Virus record (IMG/VR): IMGVR_UViG_3300044530_000432
Location: 1 to 24,878 of that record
Direction: 5' to 3' (one strand)
From: a virus
Length of the DNA stretch: 24,878 nt
Shown: positions 1 to 24,015 of the stretch, in pieces
How positions within the stretch are numbered: the first letter of the stretch is position 1
How the letters are laid out: the number at the start of each line of letters is the position of its first letter
The notes under the pieces: generated by a model
The model's input: only the letters and a program-made list of their open reading frames with translations
Database searches by the model: none
What the model was told of the DNA's origin: nothing
Made by a program: the position numbers and the translations under genes

Positions 1-1
1 T

Positions 2-790
2 AATGCTTTACAATACGATGCGGCATTCTTCCAACGTGCATTTGGCAACGTAATTGAGATAGCCAAGTTTATGAAAGATTGCGGCTTAAAGATTATTTAC
101 GAGCTAGATGACAACTTGTGGGAGATTCCTTTATCATTTGACATAAAACGATTTTACGATAAGGATAAGCTATCTACAATGGTTTATATGCTAAAGATAA
201 GTGATTTGGTAATTGTAAGCACACAAGCATTAGCCGACTACATAGAAACAGCTTTTGATGTAAAATGCGAAGTAGTAAATAATGCGATTGATTTAAACAA
301 ATATCCTATCCAAACTTATAACGAAGATGGCGCATTAATTTGGAGAGGTTCAAGTACTCATCGCTCAGACCTTAGACAATACAGAGAAGTAATGGAAGGA
401 ATAGCCGAACCAATACAATTATGGGGATATGATGCCGTAAACCTAGAACCTAAGTTAAAGCTAAAAAAGTTTACATTTGTAAAGCCACTAGACCCAATTT
501 ACTATTTTGCTAATTTAAGAGCAGAAAAGCCTAGAGGAATTGTCACACCTTTAGCAGAGGATGTATTTAACGCTTGTAAGTCAAACATTGCCTACTTAGA
601 AGCAACTATGGCTGGTGGTGTATGCTATTCAAACCAATGGGGCGAGTTTAAGAACAAAGGATTGAATTTAAGCGAGGTTAACAACAAAAACCACAAAGAA
701 GCACACGAAGCGGCTACAATTGATGTAAAAGAAAATTATTCACTAAAGCAAGCAAACGATAAACGAATTGACTTGTTTAAATCATTATAA
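2..790 (+). CDS. Glycosyltransferase, GT-B fold (family 1/4-like), 5' partial
   Basis: The reading frame is open from base 2, so the gene begins left of the window; the ATG at 71 is probably internal because the residues before it (FFQRAFG, IEIAKFM) fit the family's usual N-terminal pattern. It should transfer a sugar from a nucleotide donor to a glycan or protein acceptor. Numbering from the ATG at 71, visible motifs are ELDDNLWEIP (11-20), VVNNAIDLNKYP (68-79), an RGS motif starting the second Rossmann half (92-94), and a C-terminal acceptor/donor-site segment containing KSNIAYLEATMAGG (170-183), which is typical of GT-B enzymes. It is followed after 2 bp by another GT-like gene and then a methyltransferase, which suggests a surface-glycan or virion-decoration module. 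The substrate is unknown. Family assignment is fairly secure; role in the phage is inference. Confidence 0.8.
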   Translation, partial: NALQYDAAFFQRAFGNVIEIAKFMKDCGLKIIYELDDNLWEIPLSFDIKRFYDKDKLSTMVYMLKISDLVIVSTQALADYIETAFDVKCEVVNNAIDLNKYPIQTYNEDGALIWRGSSTHRSDLRQYREVMEGIAEPIQLWGYDAVNLEPKLKLKKFTFVKPLDPIYYFANLRAEKPRGIVTPLAEDVFNACKSNIAYLEATMAGGVCYSNQWGEFKNKGLNLSEVNNKNHKEAHEAATIDVKENYSLKQANDKRIDLFKSL

Positions 791-792
791 AA

Positions 793-1332
793 ATGGAATT
801 AAAAATAGTAGTACCAACACATATTTGGGAATTTGAGGCAATACAAAGAGAATGGTTTGAATACGGAAATTTCCCTATTGAGGTTATTCACGAACAAGGC
901 GAAGCTCCTAGCGGAAGAAACGTAAGGCAAAAGTATACCGAAATCTATGCTGGTCAAGATGTTTATGTTCACTTTTTAGATATAGACAACCTTATTCCGA
1001 TGGAAGTTATTGCCGATTTATTTTATTTAGCCGAAGAACCTAAGATTTATATGTTTGACCAAATCTGGCATACAAACGGAATTAAGAGATTAAACGCAAA
1101 GGCAGAAAATTGTCTACCTGCTAGATGCGACATTGCTCAATTATTCGTGCATGGGTCATTTCTTAAAGACATGGTTTGGAGTGCCGATTACGAAAACGAT
1201 GGACAATTTATAGCCGAATTGCATAGACGCTATCCAAATGACTTTGTTTTTGTAAATGATGTGAATGTATGGTATAACGCATTAAGACCGCATAGTCAGC
1301 TTTATAATGGGCAAATAATAACAATAGCGTAA
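793..1332 (+). CDS. Small GT-A-like glycosyltransferase (putative)
   Basis: This 179-residue protein starts with a beta strand typical of GT-A enzymes (KIVVPTHIW, 4-12) and has a DID motif in VYVHFLDIDNLIP (about 57-69) that resembles the metal-binding DxD of family 2 glycosyltransferases. A later DVNVWYNALRPHSQ stretch could be the acceptor side. It is shorter than usual GT2 enzymes (around 230-300 residues), which makes the assignment provisional. It lies 2 bp after the GT-B gene, and its stop overlaps the start of the FkbM gene (TAATG), so the three are almost certainly co-translated. It could instead be a non-catalytic nucleotide-sugar-binding protein. Confidence 0.6.
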   Translation: MELKIVVPTHIWEFEAIQREWFEYGNFPIEVIHEQGEAPSGRNVRQKYTEIYAGQDVYVHFLDIDNLIPMEVIADLFYLAEEPKIYMFDQIWHTNGIKRLNAKAENCLPARCDIAQLFVHGSFLKDMVWSADYENDGQFIAELHRRYPNDFVFVNDVNVWYNALRPHSQLYNGQIITIA

Positions 1333-1940
1333 TGAATGTAAACTTTAATAAACTTGCAGAACAAGTAAAACCAATTGGAATAGTCCATGTAGGTGCTAAC
1401 ACTTGCCAAGAACTACCTCTATACTTATCGTACGGAATAGAAAACAGAATTTGGATTGAACCATTTGTTGAGCTAGAGTTTCCTAATGGGGAAACAATTA
1501 TAAACGTAGGTATAGGCGATAAAAACGAGGAAATAAGCGTAGTGTACCAAGCAAGCAACAATAATGAAAGCACGAGCCTATTAAAGCCAATTAAACATAT
1601 TGAAATGTATAATAACATAAACTTTAATCTGGCTAAAATTCCTACAAAAATTGTCACGCTTGAGGAGGTCATCAAAAACAACCTAGGGGGTGGTCAAAAC
1701 TTTAACTATCTAGTTTTAGATATTCAAGGCATGGAACTAAAAGCTTTAAAAGGATTAGGGCAATACGCAAACCACTTTGATGTGATTATTACTGAGGCTT
1801 ATATTGATGAATTGTACGAGGATTGCGGAAAGCTAAATGAGATTCAAGAACTTTTAACTGATTACCAAATGGTAGAGTTTATAGCAGAACCCTACAAAGG
1901 TTGGGGCGATGCTGCATTTATTAGAAAAGATTTAATTTAA
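1332..1940 (+). CDS. FkbM-family SAM-dependent methyltransferase
   Basis: The 202-residue product has the FkbM methyltransferase layout: SAM-binding glycine motif IVHVGANTCQE (17-27), an acidic residue after strand 2 in WIEP (41-44), VTLEEV (108-113), and the family signature LDIQGMELKALKG (129-141), then EAY and a C-terminal GWGDAAFIRK strand. FkbM enzymes O-methylate small molecules and sugars, so here it probably caps or modifies the glycan made by the two upstream transferases. The start ATG overlaps the upstream stop codon (TAATG at 1330-1334). It is the last gene before a 214-bp gap and before the GATC-rich block. Confidence 0.85.
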   Translation: MNVNFNKLAEQVKPIGIVHVGANTCQELPLYLSYGIENRIWIEPFVELEFPNGETIINVGIGDKNEEISVVYQASNNNESTSLLKPIKHIEMYNNINFNLAKIPTKIVTLEEVIKNNLGGGQNFNYLVLDIQGMELKALKGLGQYANHFDVIITEAYIDELYEDCGKLNEIQELLTDYQMVEFIAEPYKGWGDAAFIRKDLI

Positions 1941-2154
1941 TTTTTATTTTTGTCTGGAGGTTGGGAAAAAAAATAAAAAAATAAAAAAAAATATTTTGGC
2001 GGGGAATTTCCGAAAAATAGAGGGTCAATTTTTTTTTTCAAAAACCCCTACACCCCTCAAAACACACTTTTTTTATTTAGTGTCCTATAAATAGGTCACT
2101 TAGGTGTACAAAAAACTTGACAAAGATAGATAACTAACTAAAAACCAATATATT
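1941..2154. other. Intergenic region, A/T tracts and an interrupted palindrome
   Basis: No coding frame is supported here. The first 100 bp consist of long A and T runs around a short G-rich patch. At 2045-2057 lies a C-rich stretch ending in TACACCCCT; a near-identical TACACCCCCT occurs at 4561-4570 on the other side of the accessory block. At 2079-2100 an interrupted palindrome has arms AGTG/CACT and CCTAT/ATAGG around a central AA. An isolated TATTTTTG (1945-1952) matches the Bacteroidota -7 consensus but sits too far from the next start to be called a promoter. Confidence 0.5.
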
Positions 2155-2769
2155 ATGATTGCTTCACTTGTATACAATACACAGGAATTGATCCCTATAT
2201 TACAGGATCAGATACCAGACATATTTTTGATTGATGCTGGAAGCTCTGAACCTATTCAAGGCTGCCATATAAGATACGAAACCAATCTATTTTGGGTGGG
2301 GAATTGGGATCGTTTTTTAAGGTCTACCAACTCCCAATATGTTTGGATGTTAAACTCAGATATCACAGGCGCAACCGTTGAAATGTACAATGTATTATTA
2401 CACTATGCAATATCAACCGACGCTTTTATAATTACGCCCGCGTTTAACAGCCCTCACAAAGTTTTTAATTCCATAGGCAATACAATAAGATCATCCAATT
2501 GGGTAGATATGGCAGCCCCATTAATAAACGTAAAAATGTATAAACAGCTGGGCGGTTTTGATTTATCGTTTAAAGGCTACTTTGCGGACATAGATTTGTG
2601 CTATAGGGCAAACCAGGAAAAAATGAAAATGTACATAGACGATACATTATATGTTAATCATCTAGGAGGATACACAGTAATAAAGGAAGCAAAGCATGAA
2701 CAGGCAAACATGGCTGATAATGATCTACTAATAAAAAAACATGGTAAAAGCTGGTTTGAATTGATCTAA
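2155..2769 (+). CDS. GT2-family glycosyltransferase
   Basis: The 204-residue protein is a compact GT-A/GT2 transferase: an N-terminal strand with YNTQ (7-10), IDAGS (26-30) around the nucleotide site, MLNSDI (65-70) in the place of the DxD loop, and the rhamnosyltransferase-like acceptor region GGFDLSFKGYFADIDLCYR (133-151), followed by a conserved late histidine in VNHLGG. It should add a hexose or deoxyhexose to a surface polysaccharide or virion protein. Unlike the three sugar genes before it, it contains six GATC sites, so it likely has a different origin from its left neighbours. It is convergent with the minus-strand operon; a hairpin terminator lies between them. Confidence 0.85.
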   Translation: MIASLVYNTQELIPILQDQIPDIFLIDAGSSEPIQGCHIRYETNLFWVGNWDRFLRSTNSQYVWMLNSDITGATVEMYNVLLHYAISTDAFIITPAFNSPHKVFNSIGNTIRSSNWVDMAAPLINVKMYKQLGGFDLSFKGYFADIDLCYRANQEKMKMYIDDTLYVNHLGGYTVIKEAKHEQANMADNDLLIKKHGKSWFELI

Positions 2770-2783
2770 ACCAGTAAGGAAGC

Positions 2784-2819
2784 AAAAAAATCCCTGCAAA
2801 GTATTAAAACAATGCAGGG
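2784..2819 (-). terminator. Rho-independent terminator of the minus-strand operon
   Basis: On the minus strand, a 7-bp stem formed by 2813-2819 and 2792-2798 (CCCTGCA/TGCAGGG, 14-nt loop) is followed by a TGCAGGG-distal run of seven T (the A run 2784-2790 on the plus strand). It begins 15 bp past the stop of the last operon gene. This is a textbook intrinsic terminator for leftward transcription. It may also slow rightward transcription from the glycosyltransferase gene, but no T run follows in that direction. Confidence 0.8.
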
Positions 2820-2833
2820 CATAAAGGTATTAA

Positions 2834-3007
2834 TTATAAAATTTCCCACAAAATATTAATTCCGTCATGTTCTACTATTTTTTGACCTTTTAAATAATTG
2901 ACTAATTTTTTAGCAGTTTCTAAATCAAACCACGAATTTAAACCTGTGCCTGCATTTAAGTAGGTATTATTTGCGTTTAATATCCTATATTTTATATTAT
3001 TTTTCAT
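2834..3007 (-). CDS. Small conserved-looking phage protein, 57 aa
   Basis: A 57-residue protein whose central GTGLNSWFDLETAKKLVNYLKGQKIVEHDG section reads like a compact alpha/beta fold (strand, helix, strand); function unknown. I place the start at 3007 (ATGAAAAAT), not at the longer possible start at 3085, because the longer form would overlap the 37-residue gene just upstream, and the 8-bp spacing from that gene's stop fits the operon. It is the last gene before the terminator. Confidence 0.65.
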   Translation of the reverse strand: MKNNIKYRILNANNTYLNAGTGLNSWFDLETAKKLVNYLKGQKIVEHDGINILWEIL

Positions 3008-3015
3008 ATAATTAG

Positions 3016-3129
3016 TTATTTGGTAAATGTTAAAAAGAATAAAATTGATAAGCCTAAAATTAAGAATCCCCAGTTGACAGCGCAAAGCATAGCAAATAAG
3101 CTGATCAATATAACGTATTTTGTTTTCAT
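3016..3129 (-). CDS. 37-aa membrane microprotein
   Basis: This short frame starts ATGAAAACAAAA at 3129 on the minus strand and ends TAA at 3018-3016, giving 37 residues. After a basic start (MKTK) the protein is almost wholly hydrophobic, with a central N-W-G that could mark a turn between two short membrane segments or a kink in one long helix. It fits exactly between its neighbours: 2 bp after the stop of the 65-residue gene and 8 bp before the 57-residue gene. That packing is the main reason to believe it is real. It is too short for standard gene finders. Function unknown; a membrane-active or envelope-targeted role is inference. Confidence 0.6.
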   Translation of the reverse strand: MKTKYVILISLFAMLCAVNWGFLILGLSILFFLTFTK

Positions 3130-3131
3130 GT

Positions 3132-3329
3132 CTATAAAATTATAAATGTGCAAAAGTCTTGAATGTCTGACGGGTGAATATTCCCATATTTGGCTGATGA
3201 ATAAAAACCTTGTTTTCTATATTTGTTTTTGAATGATTCCAAAGCTTTTAAAGCTTGTTTTTTGCTTTTATAGTTTGCTGTGGTTTCTATAGTGATTCCA
3301 TCAGGTGAAAATATTTGATACTTTGACAT
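3132..3329 (-). CDS. Small hypothetical protein, 65 aa
   Basis: A basic 65-residue protein beginning MSKYQIFSPDGITIE, followed by a lysine-rich helix (SKKQALKALESFKNKYRKQGFYSS) and a C-terminal strand. The beta-alpha-beta pattern suggests a small single-domain protein, but I do not recognise a function. It starts 2 bp after the stop of the Gp88-like gene and ends 2 bp before the microprotein start, so it belongs to the same transcript. Confidence 0.7.
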   Translation of the reverse strand: MSKYQIFSPDGITIETTANYKSKKQALKALESFKNKYRKQGFYSSAKYGNIHPSDIQDFCTFIIL

Positions 3330-3331
3330 AT

Positions 3332-4075
3332 TTACAAGCTTTTAATATTGATCACAAAATTAGATGTCTCTTTTTTAGCTTTGCCTTTAGCAGATAAGCC
3401 CACTATGACATTGGCAGGATCTAAATATCTTAAGTCAGATTCATCCCCATTTATAACTGTATAGTTTAAATAAGTAGCTGGTAACTGACTAAATACTGCT
3501 GCAACATTCCCCCCCAGCTCTAAAAACTTTTTACATTCATGCTCATTTATTTCTGATCTGCTAAATGTCAGGCTGTAGTCAGTATCTAAATACTTTACAG
3601 CTCTTTTATAATTTTTTGTATAGTCATAAAATTTAAGGTTTGCAAAATCTGTTAATATATCCTTATTAAGTTTAATGTTAATCAATTCGATAAAGTCTAA
3701 ATCTGATGTGCCGTTTAAACGTATTGCAATTGCTTTATTTTCAAGCATTGCCTCGGCATTAATTAAGTAAAGCTCCTTATATAATTGAGTTAAAAATCCG
3801 ATGGGATCACTAAAAAACAAATCTGTTTTGCGTTGCCTTGCTGCCTGTACATTGCTAAATTTACCCATCCCCGCAGTATTAAGACAAGCAGCTGCACAGC
3901 CTGCCGAGGCATTTCCGCATACATTTTTACCAAATGAATTCTGTTTATAAGGTGACAAATAAAGTATATAAGATTCTACTATATGCTGATTTTTAGCTGT
4001 TTTGCTGTTAGTAGATCCGTGAGATAGTAATTTGTTTTTAAAGTTTGATCTGGTTTGTAGTGCTGTGTTTTTCAT
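3332..4075 (-). CDS. Gp88-family phage protein (possible metal/iron-sulfur cluster protein)
   Basis: The 247-residue product matches what I recall of the Gp88 phage family: LSPYKQNSFGKNVC (40-53), the cysteine cluster C53-X6-C60-X3-C64 in the NVCGNASAGCAAAC segment followed by LNTAGMGKF, VQAARQRKTDLFF (76-88), RLNGTSDLDF (119-128), YDYTKNYKRAVKY (150-162), LTFSRSE (169-175) and a C-terminal IVGLSAKGKAKK (224-235). The three cysteines in front of a barrel-like fold are reminiscent of radical-SAM-type cluster binding, but the spacing is not the classical CxxxCxxC, and the biochemical role is unknown. It is the first gene of a minus-strand operon with its own promoter, running against the late genes. 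It contains six GATC sites, unlike the phage backbone. Confidence 0.75.
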   Translation of the reverse strand: MKNTALQTRSNFKNKLLSHGSTNSKTAKNQHIVESYILYLSPYKQNSFGKNVCGNASAGCAAACLNTAGMGKFSNVQAARQRKTDLFFSDPIGFLTQLYKELYLINAEAMLENKAIAIRLNGTSDLDFIELINIKLNKDILTDFANLKFYDYTKNYKRAVKYLDTDYSLTFSRSEINEHECKKFLELGGNVAAVFSQLPATYLNYTVINGDESDLRYLDPANVIVGLSAKGKAKKETSNFVINIKSL

Positions 4076-4111
4076 AATAATAGTTATTTTTGTTTATTGT
4101 TAATTATGGCA

Positions 4112-4143
4112 CAAATATATATAAATAGTTATTTAACTATCAA
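4112..4143 (-). promoter_or_regulatory. Candidate promoter of the minus-strand operon
   Basis: Reading the minus strand, TTG (4143-4141) is followed after 21 bp by TATATTTG (4119-4112), an exact match to the Bacteroidota -7 element TAnnTTTG. It lies 36 bp before the start codon of the Gp88-like gene, in the divergent gap with the HNH gene. On the plus strand the region contains ATATATAAATAGTTATT (4117-4133), which recurs exactly at 23857-23873 in another promoter region. Confidence 0.55.
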
Positions 4144-4187
4144 GAAGTATTTTGTATCTTACTACTAATCAATACAATAAAATTAAT

Positions 4188-4499
4188 ATGCCAATCAAAC
4201 CAGTAAGTAATAAAGTAAATAAAACAGGATCACAGTATAGTAATGGAACAGCAGGTAATTTTTATTCGTGTGCTGCCTGGTTAAAATTACGGAATTATAA
4301 AAGGTTATTGAATCCCATTTGCGAGAGCTGCGAAAAGTTGGATCTCATAATTCCATACCATACAATTGACCACATCAAACCAATAAGCGAGGGCGGAGCT
4401 GCTTTGGATCTCGCAAACCTGCAAACCTTATGTAAACAATGCCATGCTATTAAAACAGGCAAAGAAACTAGTAAACGCAACCACATAAAAAACAGATAG
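4188..4499 (+). CDS. HNH endonuclease
   Basis: The protein has the HNH/beta-beta-alpha-metal nuclease signature: two CxxC zinc pairs (C45/C48 and C82/C85), the catalytic DH (61-62) in YHTIDHIKPISEGG, N78 in LANLQTLC, and H86 after the second CxxC. In HK97-like phages such small HNH proteins lie next to the terminase genes and assist DNA cutting at packaging. A TTG start at 4152 is possible, but I chose the ATG at 4188 (MPIKPVSNK), which gives 103 residues and an A-rich leader. It lies 177 bp before terS with a palindrome and a hairpin in between. It carries three GATC sites and so belongs compositionally to the accessory block rather than to the backbone it serves. Confidence 0.85.
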   Translation: MPIKPVSNKVNKTGSQYSNGTAGNFYSCAAWLKLRNYKRLLNPICESCEKLDLIIPYHTIDHIKPISEGGAALDLANLQTLCKQCHAIKTGKETSKRNHIKNR

Positions 4500-4512
4500 T
4501 TAAGTATAAAAG

Positions 4513-4530
4513 TGTCTAGTATACTGGACA
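4513..4530. repeat. 18-bp near-perfect palindrome before terS
   Basis: TGTCTAGTATACTGGACA reads the same on both strands except for one symmetric pair (T4517 opposite G4526). The core AGTATACT is perfect. Such dyads are bound by dimeric proteins or cut symmetrically. Its position between the HNH and terminase genes makes a packaging or regulatory site plausible. Confidence 0.6.
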
Positions 4531-4540
4531 AAAGCCCATA

Positions 4541-4570
4541 GGGGGGTGTCTACTTTATTGTACACCCCCT
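4541..4570. repeat. GC-rich stem-loop between HNH and terS genes
   Basis: GGGGGTGT (4542-4549) pairs perfectly with ACACCCCC (4562-4569) across a 12-nt loop, with one further G-T pair outside. No T run follows on either strand, so it is not a standard intrinsic terminator. In an AT-rich sequence such a G/C block beside the terminase genes could be a terminator, a packaging-site element or a boundary scar of the accessory block. Confidence 0.6.
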
Positions 4571-4606
4571 GCTAACCACTGGATTAATTAAATGTACATA
4601 TTGGCA

Positions 4607-23789: not shown

Positions 23790-24015
23790 GCTTCATTTTC
23801 AGTTAGTTACAAATTAATTATAAAATAATTATTTAATTTATAGGTGCGTTGCTTGCATATATAAATAGTTATTGTAGATTTGCCCTACATTGACACGCAC
23901 GGCAACCGAACGCATACTAGACACTGCATAGGCAATGCGAACGAACACACAAGATACCTCACAGTGCGTAGGTAAGTTTCAAGTCTTGTTGACAGCTCGG
24001 AAAGACGAGCAAAAT
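23790..24015. other. Gap with promoter and possibly structured leader RNA
   Basis: No coding frame is supported between the spanin gene and the tRNA. The first 60 bp are nearly pure A/T with weak dyad symmetry. A promoter lies at 23853-23882. From there to the tRNA about 130 nt would be transcribed; base composition becomes mixed and several short helices are possible: TTGCC/GGCAA near 23881-23907, CGCAT/ATGCG near 23910-23940, CACTG/CAGTG around 23924-23966, and GCTCG/CGAGC (23995-23999 with 24006-24010). A small regulatory or processing RNA is possible but unproven. Confidence 0.4.
23853..23882 (+). promoter_or_regulatory. Promoter for the tRNA and small-gene unit
   Basis: TTG (23853-23855), a 19-bp spacer and TAGATTTG (23875-23882) match the Bacteroidota housekeeping promoter exactly at the -7 element. 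It follows the last late gene and precedes a non-coding leader, a tRNA and small genes, so it most likely starts a new transcription unit, perhaps early. The spacer contains the 17-mer ATATATAAATAGTTATT also seen at 4117-4133. Confidence 0.6.

Follow-up and report, generated by a model that had tools for sequence, protein, structure and literature searches.

The analysed stretch of DNA, a linear virus record of 24.9 kb (24,878 nt; hereafter the window), carries four closely spaced ORFs on its minus strand, separated by gaps of 2, 2 and 8 bp in the ORF calls, as the original prediction had described for a four-gene operon. These are the only apparent genes of the minus strand; the plus strand carries glycosyltransferase-like genes, an HNH endonuclease gene, the terminase and further late genes. 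The GC content of the cassette is 29.6% vs 34.9% in the window. The AT-rich sequence and the promoter form TTG...TAnnTTTG would suit a Bacteroidetes host, and the terminase of the window is matched only distantly by named phages. An Rfam scan of the window gave no RNA family. All features are listed in Table 1.

Table 1. Features of the minus-strand cassette and its surroundings (window coordinates).
Feature	Position	Strand	Remarks
Left flanking gene (GT204)	2155..2769	+	204 AA; probably a glycosyltransferase, by inspection without family match
11-bp direct repeat AAACCAGTAAG, left copy	2768..2778	+	Cassette border
Intrinsic terminator (candidate)	2784..2820	-	CCCTGCA...TGCAGGG followed by a T-run; 7-bp GC-rich stem; -15.2 kcal/mol
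orf57	2834..3007	-	57 AA; small protein; L004 has an unrelated ORF of 59 AA in this slot; phage L058 has a relative (62%)
orf37	3016..3129	-	37 AA; hydrophobic peptide that probably spans the membrane once; coding support weak
orf65	3132..3329	-	65 AA; small protein without family; purifying selection
gp88	3332..4075	-	247 AA; Pfam GP88 (PF17338), phrog_1617; predicted radical-SAM-like barrel with C53, C60, C64
Bacteroidetes-type promoter TTG-N21-TATATTTG (candidate)	4112..4143	-	Spacer carries inverted repeat ATAGTT-AAAT-AACTAT
Right flanking gene, HNH endonuclease	4188..4499	+	70% identity to the HNH homologue of L228
11-bp direct repeat AAACCAGTAAG, right copy	4197..4207	+	Lies within the initial HNH codons
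Probable physical genome end (cos-like)	4580..4590	.	Related contigs begin at C(T)TTAAATGTA

An own promoter and a strong intrinsic terminator had been claimed for the cassette, and candidates for both were located. The exact pattern TTG-N21-TATATTTG occurs once in the window. Since 9 of 100 shuffles also contain it, the pattern is weak when taken alone. A relaxed pattern gave 7 matches (~3 expected) and was not informative. In the related record L004, which holds the cassette at about 10% divergence, the region upstream through the promoter is identical to the window and the first difference lies just past the promoter. The hairpin and T-run of the terminator are nearly unchanged in L004 as well, despite the unrelated gene preceding them there. 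This terminator was missed by the terminator scan because the loop limit of the scan is 8 bases. If both signals act as their sequence suggests, the terminator would insulate the cassette from the convergent late genes.

The gp88 promoter carries the sequence ATAACTAT within its spacer (4125-4132). Further copies lie between this promoter and the gp88 start (4080-4087) and in another promoter of Bacteroidetes type, upstream of tRNA-Met (23853-23882). A possible operator shared by the two promoters was not borne out as significant, since shuffles reached an equal count in 8-16 of 100 cases, and is left as a hint.

The same cassette is present in the records L002 and L003. Substitution rates (NG86) were computed for the window vs L004. 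For gp88, dN is 0.034 and dS 0.49, for orf65 0.033 and 0.74, and for orf37 0.14 and 0.19, the latter giving weak coding support. Since dN is far below dS, gp88 and orf65 are regarded as real genes, and the sequence comparison indicates strong purifying selection on both. The fourth gene has been exchanged: an unrelated 59-AA ORF occupies the slot in L004 and a homologue of orf57 is absent there. The one relative of orf57 (62%) lies among structural-type genes in another phage, L058, and relatives of orf65 were found only within the same species group. Outside this group, none of the companions orf65, orf37 and orf57 was found beside GP88, which is itself widespread; the expectation that homologues of all four genes travel together is therefore not borne out past the species group. 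The small genes downstream of gp88 would be exchangeable accessories.

In a further relative, L228, the site is empty. The stop codon of its GT204 homologue (71% identity) and the start codon of its HNH homologue (70%) are 2 bp apart, and the whole 1.4 kb is missing. In the window, the cassette is bordered by the 11-bp direct repeat, a repeat length that 9 of 2000 shuffles and 1 of 2000 random window pairs attained. Empty site and border repeat together are good evidence, on the level of sequence, that the cassette was gained or lost as a unit. A simple target-site duplication was rejected as the origin of the repeat, because the right copy is preceded by the start codon of the HNH gene and the left copy is not.

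The cassette had been predicted to be a moron, expressed from the prophage or early after entry. Structurally, this stands. As in phage morons, a cassette with what appear to be its own promoter and terminator, judged from the sequence and from conservation in L004, is inserted between two genes which adjoin in a relative. Because the signals are kept in L004 and the site is empty in L228, we regard it as an inserted, probably independently transcribed cassette with the structure of a moron; the exchange of its fourth gene and the lower GC content agree with this. It differs from phage morons in that its phage is without sign of lysogeny and in its probable position at a genome end. Expression from a prophage did not find support, because a search for tyrosine integrases found none in the window or in 11 related records, which are fragments. 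Alternatively, the cassette could be a moron of the classical lysogenic-conversion type, whose expression from the prophage would benefit the host or exclude superinfecting phages. This would explain an inserted opposite-strand cassette with independent promoter and terminator, and also the probable small membrane peptide, which is typical of exclusion genes. We nevertheless consider it improbable, given that no tyrosine integrase was found in these records and that GP88 is present also in T7-like Autographiviridae (e.g. HTVC134P, Lo5R7ANS) and at early genome ends.

A probable genome end is indicated by related contigs. Five terminase contigs (L180, L185, L187, L188 and L189) begin at the same base of C(T)TTAAATGTA, corresponding to about position 4587 of the window, between the HNH gene and the small terminase gene; two more (L182 and L186) begin about 20 bases earlier. 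The five are mutually 71-91% identical, except that L187 and L188 belong to a single species, so that about four species are represented. The common starts are most simply explained by a fixed genome end, though an assembly break is possible. The cassette then probably lies about 0.5 kb (gp88 start) from the genome end and would be transcribed inward from a promoter on the side of this end. In the gap between HNH and terminase genes (4500-4590), an inverted repeat AGGGGGGTGT...ACACCCCCT is located just before the probable end; it is possibly a packaging or cos-site element. When L228 (3166-6250) is compared with window positions 1-4499, the glycosyltransferase-like genes and the HNH gene are in different order, and this end of the genome is therefore considered mosaic.

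A position at the genome end recurs for GP88 in other phages. Thirty named records were drawn from match lists and are not a random sample; in 19 of these, GP88 lies 0.2-2.4 kb from the record end on its upstream side, reading inward (HTVC134P, HTVC120P, CRP-143, CRP-235, CRP-6, HTVC309P, HTVC115P, HTVC035P, HTVC024P, Lo5R7ANS, RHEph21, HMO-2011 and seven tabulated mycobacteriophages). Among these phages are Autographiviridae, HMO-2011 and mycobacteriophages; Turbido and Peaches have only one gene between GP88 and their right end. The other tabulated records deviate from this pattern, in part because assemblies may be permuted. GP88 is far from the record end in Sansa, DC31, HTVC023P, XacN1, CM1 and Tunturi_5, some of which may be permuted records. 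The right end is where Pleft, the early lytic promoter, is located in L5/D29-type mycobacteriophages, and right-arm genes of D29 are on at 15 min (PMC5712189). By analogy, GP88 is probably made early after entry; of the two times of expression originally proposed, this one thus gains indirect support from the position of GP88 in other phages.

The protein encoded by gp88 matches Pfam GP88 (PF17338) over residues 22-242 with an E-value of 4.8e-36 and 125.2 bits (cut-off 24.4), and all 32 aligned members match this family, too. It shares with the family (phrog_1617, phrog_1392) a near full-length match, three cysteines and the motifs RLNGTSD and FYDYTK; it differs in its setting, since the closest relatives outside the species sit in long same-strand arrays of small genes and not in an opposed cassette. 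GP88 had been called widespread in phages, which is borne out by at least 264 phage records, including mycobacteriophages and marine Pelagibacter phages. Relatives were found, with other neighbours, at 51 viral loci and at 30 loci in bacterial or archaeal assemblies. The cysteine cluster C-X6-C-X3-C is present as described (C53, C60, C64) and invariant in the 32 aligned homologues with respect to the three cysteines, the spacing being C-X5-8-C-X3-C: the first gap varies and the second is always three. In total, 21 positions including these cysteines are invariant, and the invariant residues R119, N121, G122, D125, D151, K154, S172 and D214 lie at or just past strand ends, a placement that resembles the active sites of barrels.

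The AlphaFold model of the window GP88 (pLDDT 87.8) is barrel-like, with strand 1 at residues 35-38, then the cysteines, and then strands at 116-119, 147-153, 167-172, 190-195, 205-209 and 224-228. With VIA-align, rows 1-33 are all radical-SAM proteins (Z 6.0-4.2) before any other fold appears. The second subfamily, phrog_1392, which is GP88 in Pfam too and homologous to the first (hhalign 98%, E 1e-13), was modelled separately (pLDDT 89.6) and gave radical-SAM proteins in rows 1-20, viperin being first at Z 6.6. The entries include NifB, spore photoproduct lyase, viperin, EpeE, SuiB and QueE. Z values under 8 can merely reflect a common arrangement. Other searches were negative: Foldseek alone gave no significant match to the PDB for either model, a PDB sequence search with the GP88 profile gave no match, neither Radical_SAM (PF04055) nor its kin was among the families matched by the 32 members at E ≤ 1, and hhalign of GP88 against MoaA-like, MiaB-like and other radical-SAM alignments yielded probabilities ≤ 1.5%. 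Since the two models agree and the cysteines follow strand 1, a likeness to radical-SAM proteins beyond chance is nevertheless probable on the level of predicted structure. The metal centre at which the cysteine cluster had been thought to hint is consistent with this and can be sharpened to a putative radical-SAM-like barrel.

Compared with the Radical SAM superfamily (viperin, NifB, spore photoproduct lyase), GP88 may share a partial barrel, predicted at Z values of 6.6 or less, with a cysteine triad after strand 1 and conserved polar residues at strand ends. It differs by C-X5-8-C-X3-C vs CX3CX2C and by the lack of detectable sequence similarity; SAM binding is putative. Because the cysteine spacing of the window protein, C-X6-C-X3-C, is not the canonical CX3CX2C, GP88 is termed radical-SAM-like and not a member. 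DUF5131 (Gp37/Gp68, PF07505) also has three cysteines (C-X6-C-X2-C), and some GP88 proteins are annotated as 'Gp37/Gp68-like'. However, hhalign with GP88 is not significant and with phrog_1392 weak (E 0.0025, probability 12%), and PF07505 was not among the families matched by the 32 members.

The non-canonical spacing, the missing sequence link to Radical_SAM and the only middling structural Z values would also fit a barrel-like protein of structural or regulatory function, with zinc bound at the three cysteines, which acts by binding a host protein instead of by radical chemistry. We consider this unlikely, though the most serious competitor, as radical-SAM proteins rank first for both separately modelled subfamilies (33 and 20 rows), above aldolases and other barrels. 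Moreover, a set of three cysteines that has no invariant fourth cysteine or histidine should fit a site-differentiated Fe-S cluster better than a four-ligand zinc site. A peptide-modifying radical-SAM enzyme acting on a small protein encoded beside it is suggested by the structural neighbours SuiB, EpeE and SkfB, which modify peptides, and by the small ORFs directly after gp88; it is very improbable, as GP88 of other phages is not accompanied by these ORFs, one of which is replaced even in L004.

We therefore favour, with a probability of roughly 0.5, an inserted end-proximal cassette whose radical-SAM-like Fe-S protein GP88 is made early for host takeover or counter-defence. As the empty site shows, the 1.4-kb cassette was inserted between a glycosyltransferase-like gene and the HNH gene, probably next to one genome end; GP88, its cysteines probably holding an Fe-S cluster, would chemically modify a host or phage molecule. 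Defence, exclusion or counter-defence had been named as examples of a role; direct evidence for these was not found, and searches gave no match in PADLOC and nothing useful in NCBIfam. A literature search on the function of PF17338, DUF5131 and GP88 found no paper; in the papers followed up, 'gp88' was a shared gene number only. More tentatively, and with odds somewhat against it, GP88 may be a new radical-SAM class with a non-canonical motif, among the first proteins made in many unrelated phages and modifying a common host target, e.g. a nucleotide, tRNA, DNA or the transcription machinery. Should the radical chemistry prove real, GP88 would represent a phage enzyme of wide occurrence and early action, of which no description was found in the searchable papers. 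Pfam names the family without function, and the radical-SAM-like prediction is a testable lead: the family can be put to the test through its predicted enzyme class, its candidate residues for an active site and the early position that recurs among phages.

Some phages carry two GP88 paralogues (L017, 1114-1842 and 4998-5687; L018, 4896-5705, together with L096, 1255-1923). The paralogues may differ in substrate, because the phage of L018 carries one per subfamily. In Candidatus Uabimicrobium amorphum (L080, 1094-5852), a GP88 gene is located beside the type I restriction-modification genes hsdM and hsdS, as judged by eye from the translations.
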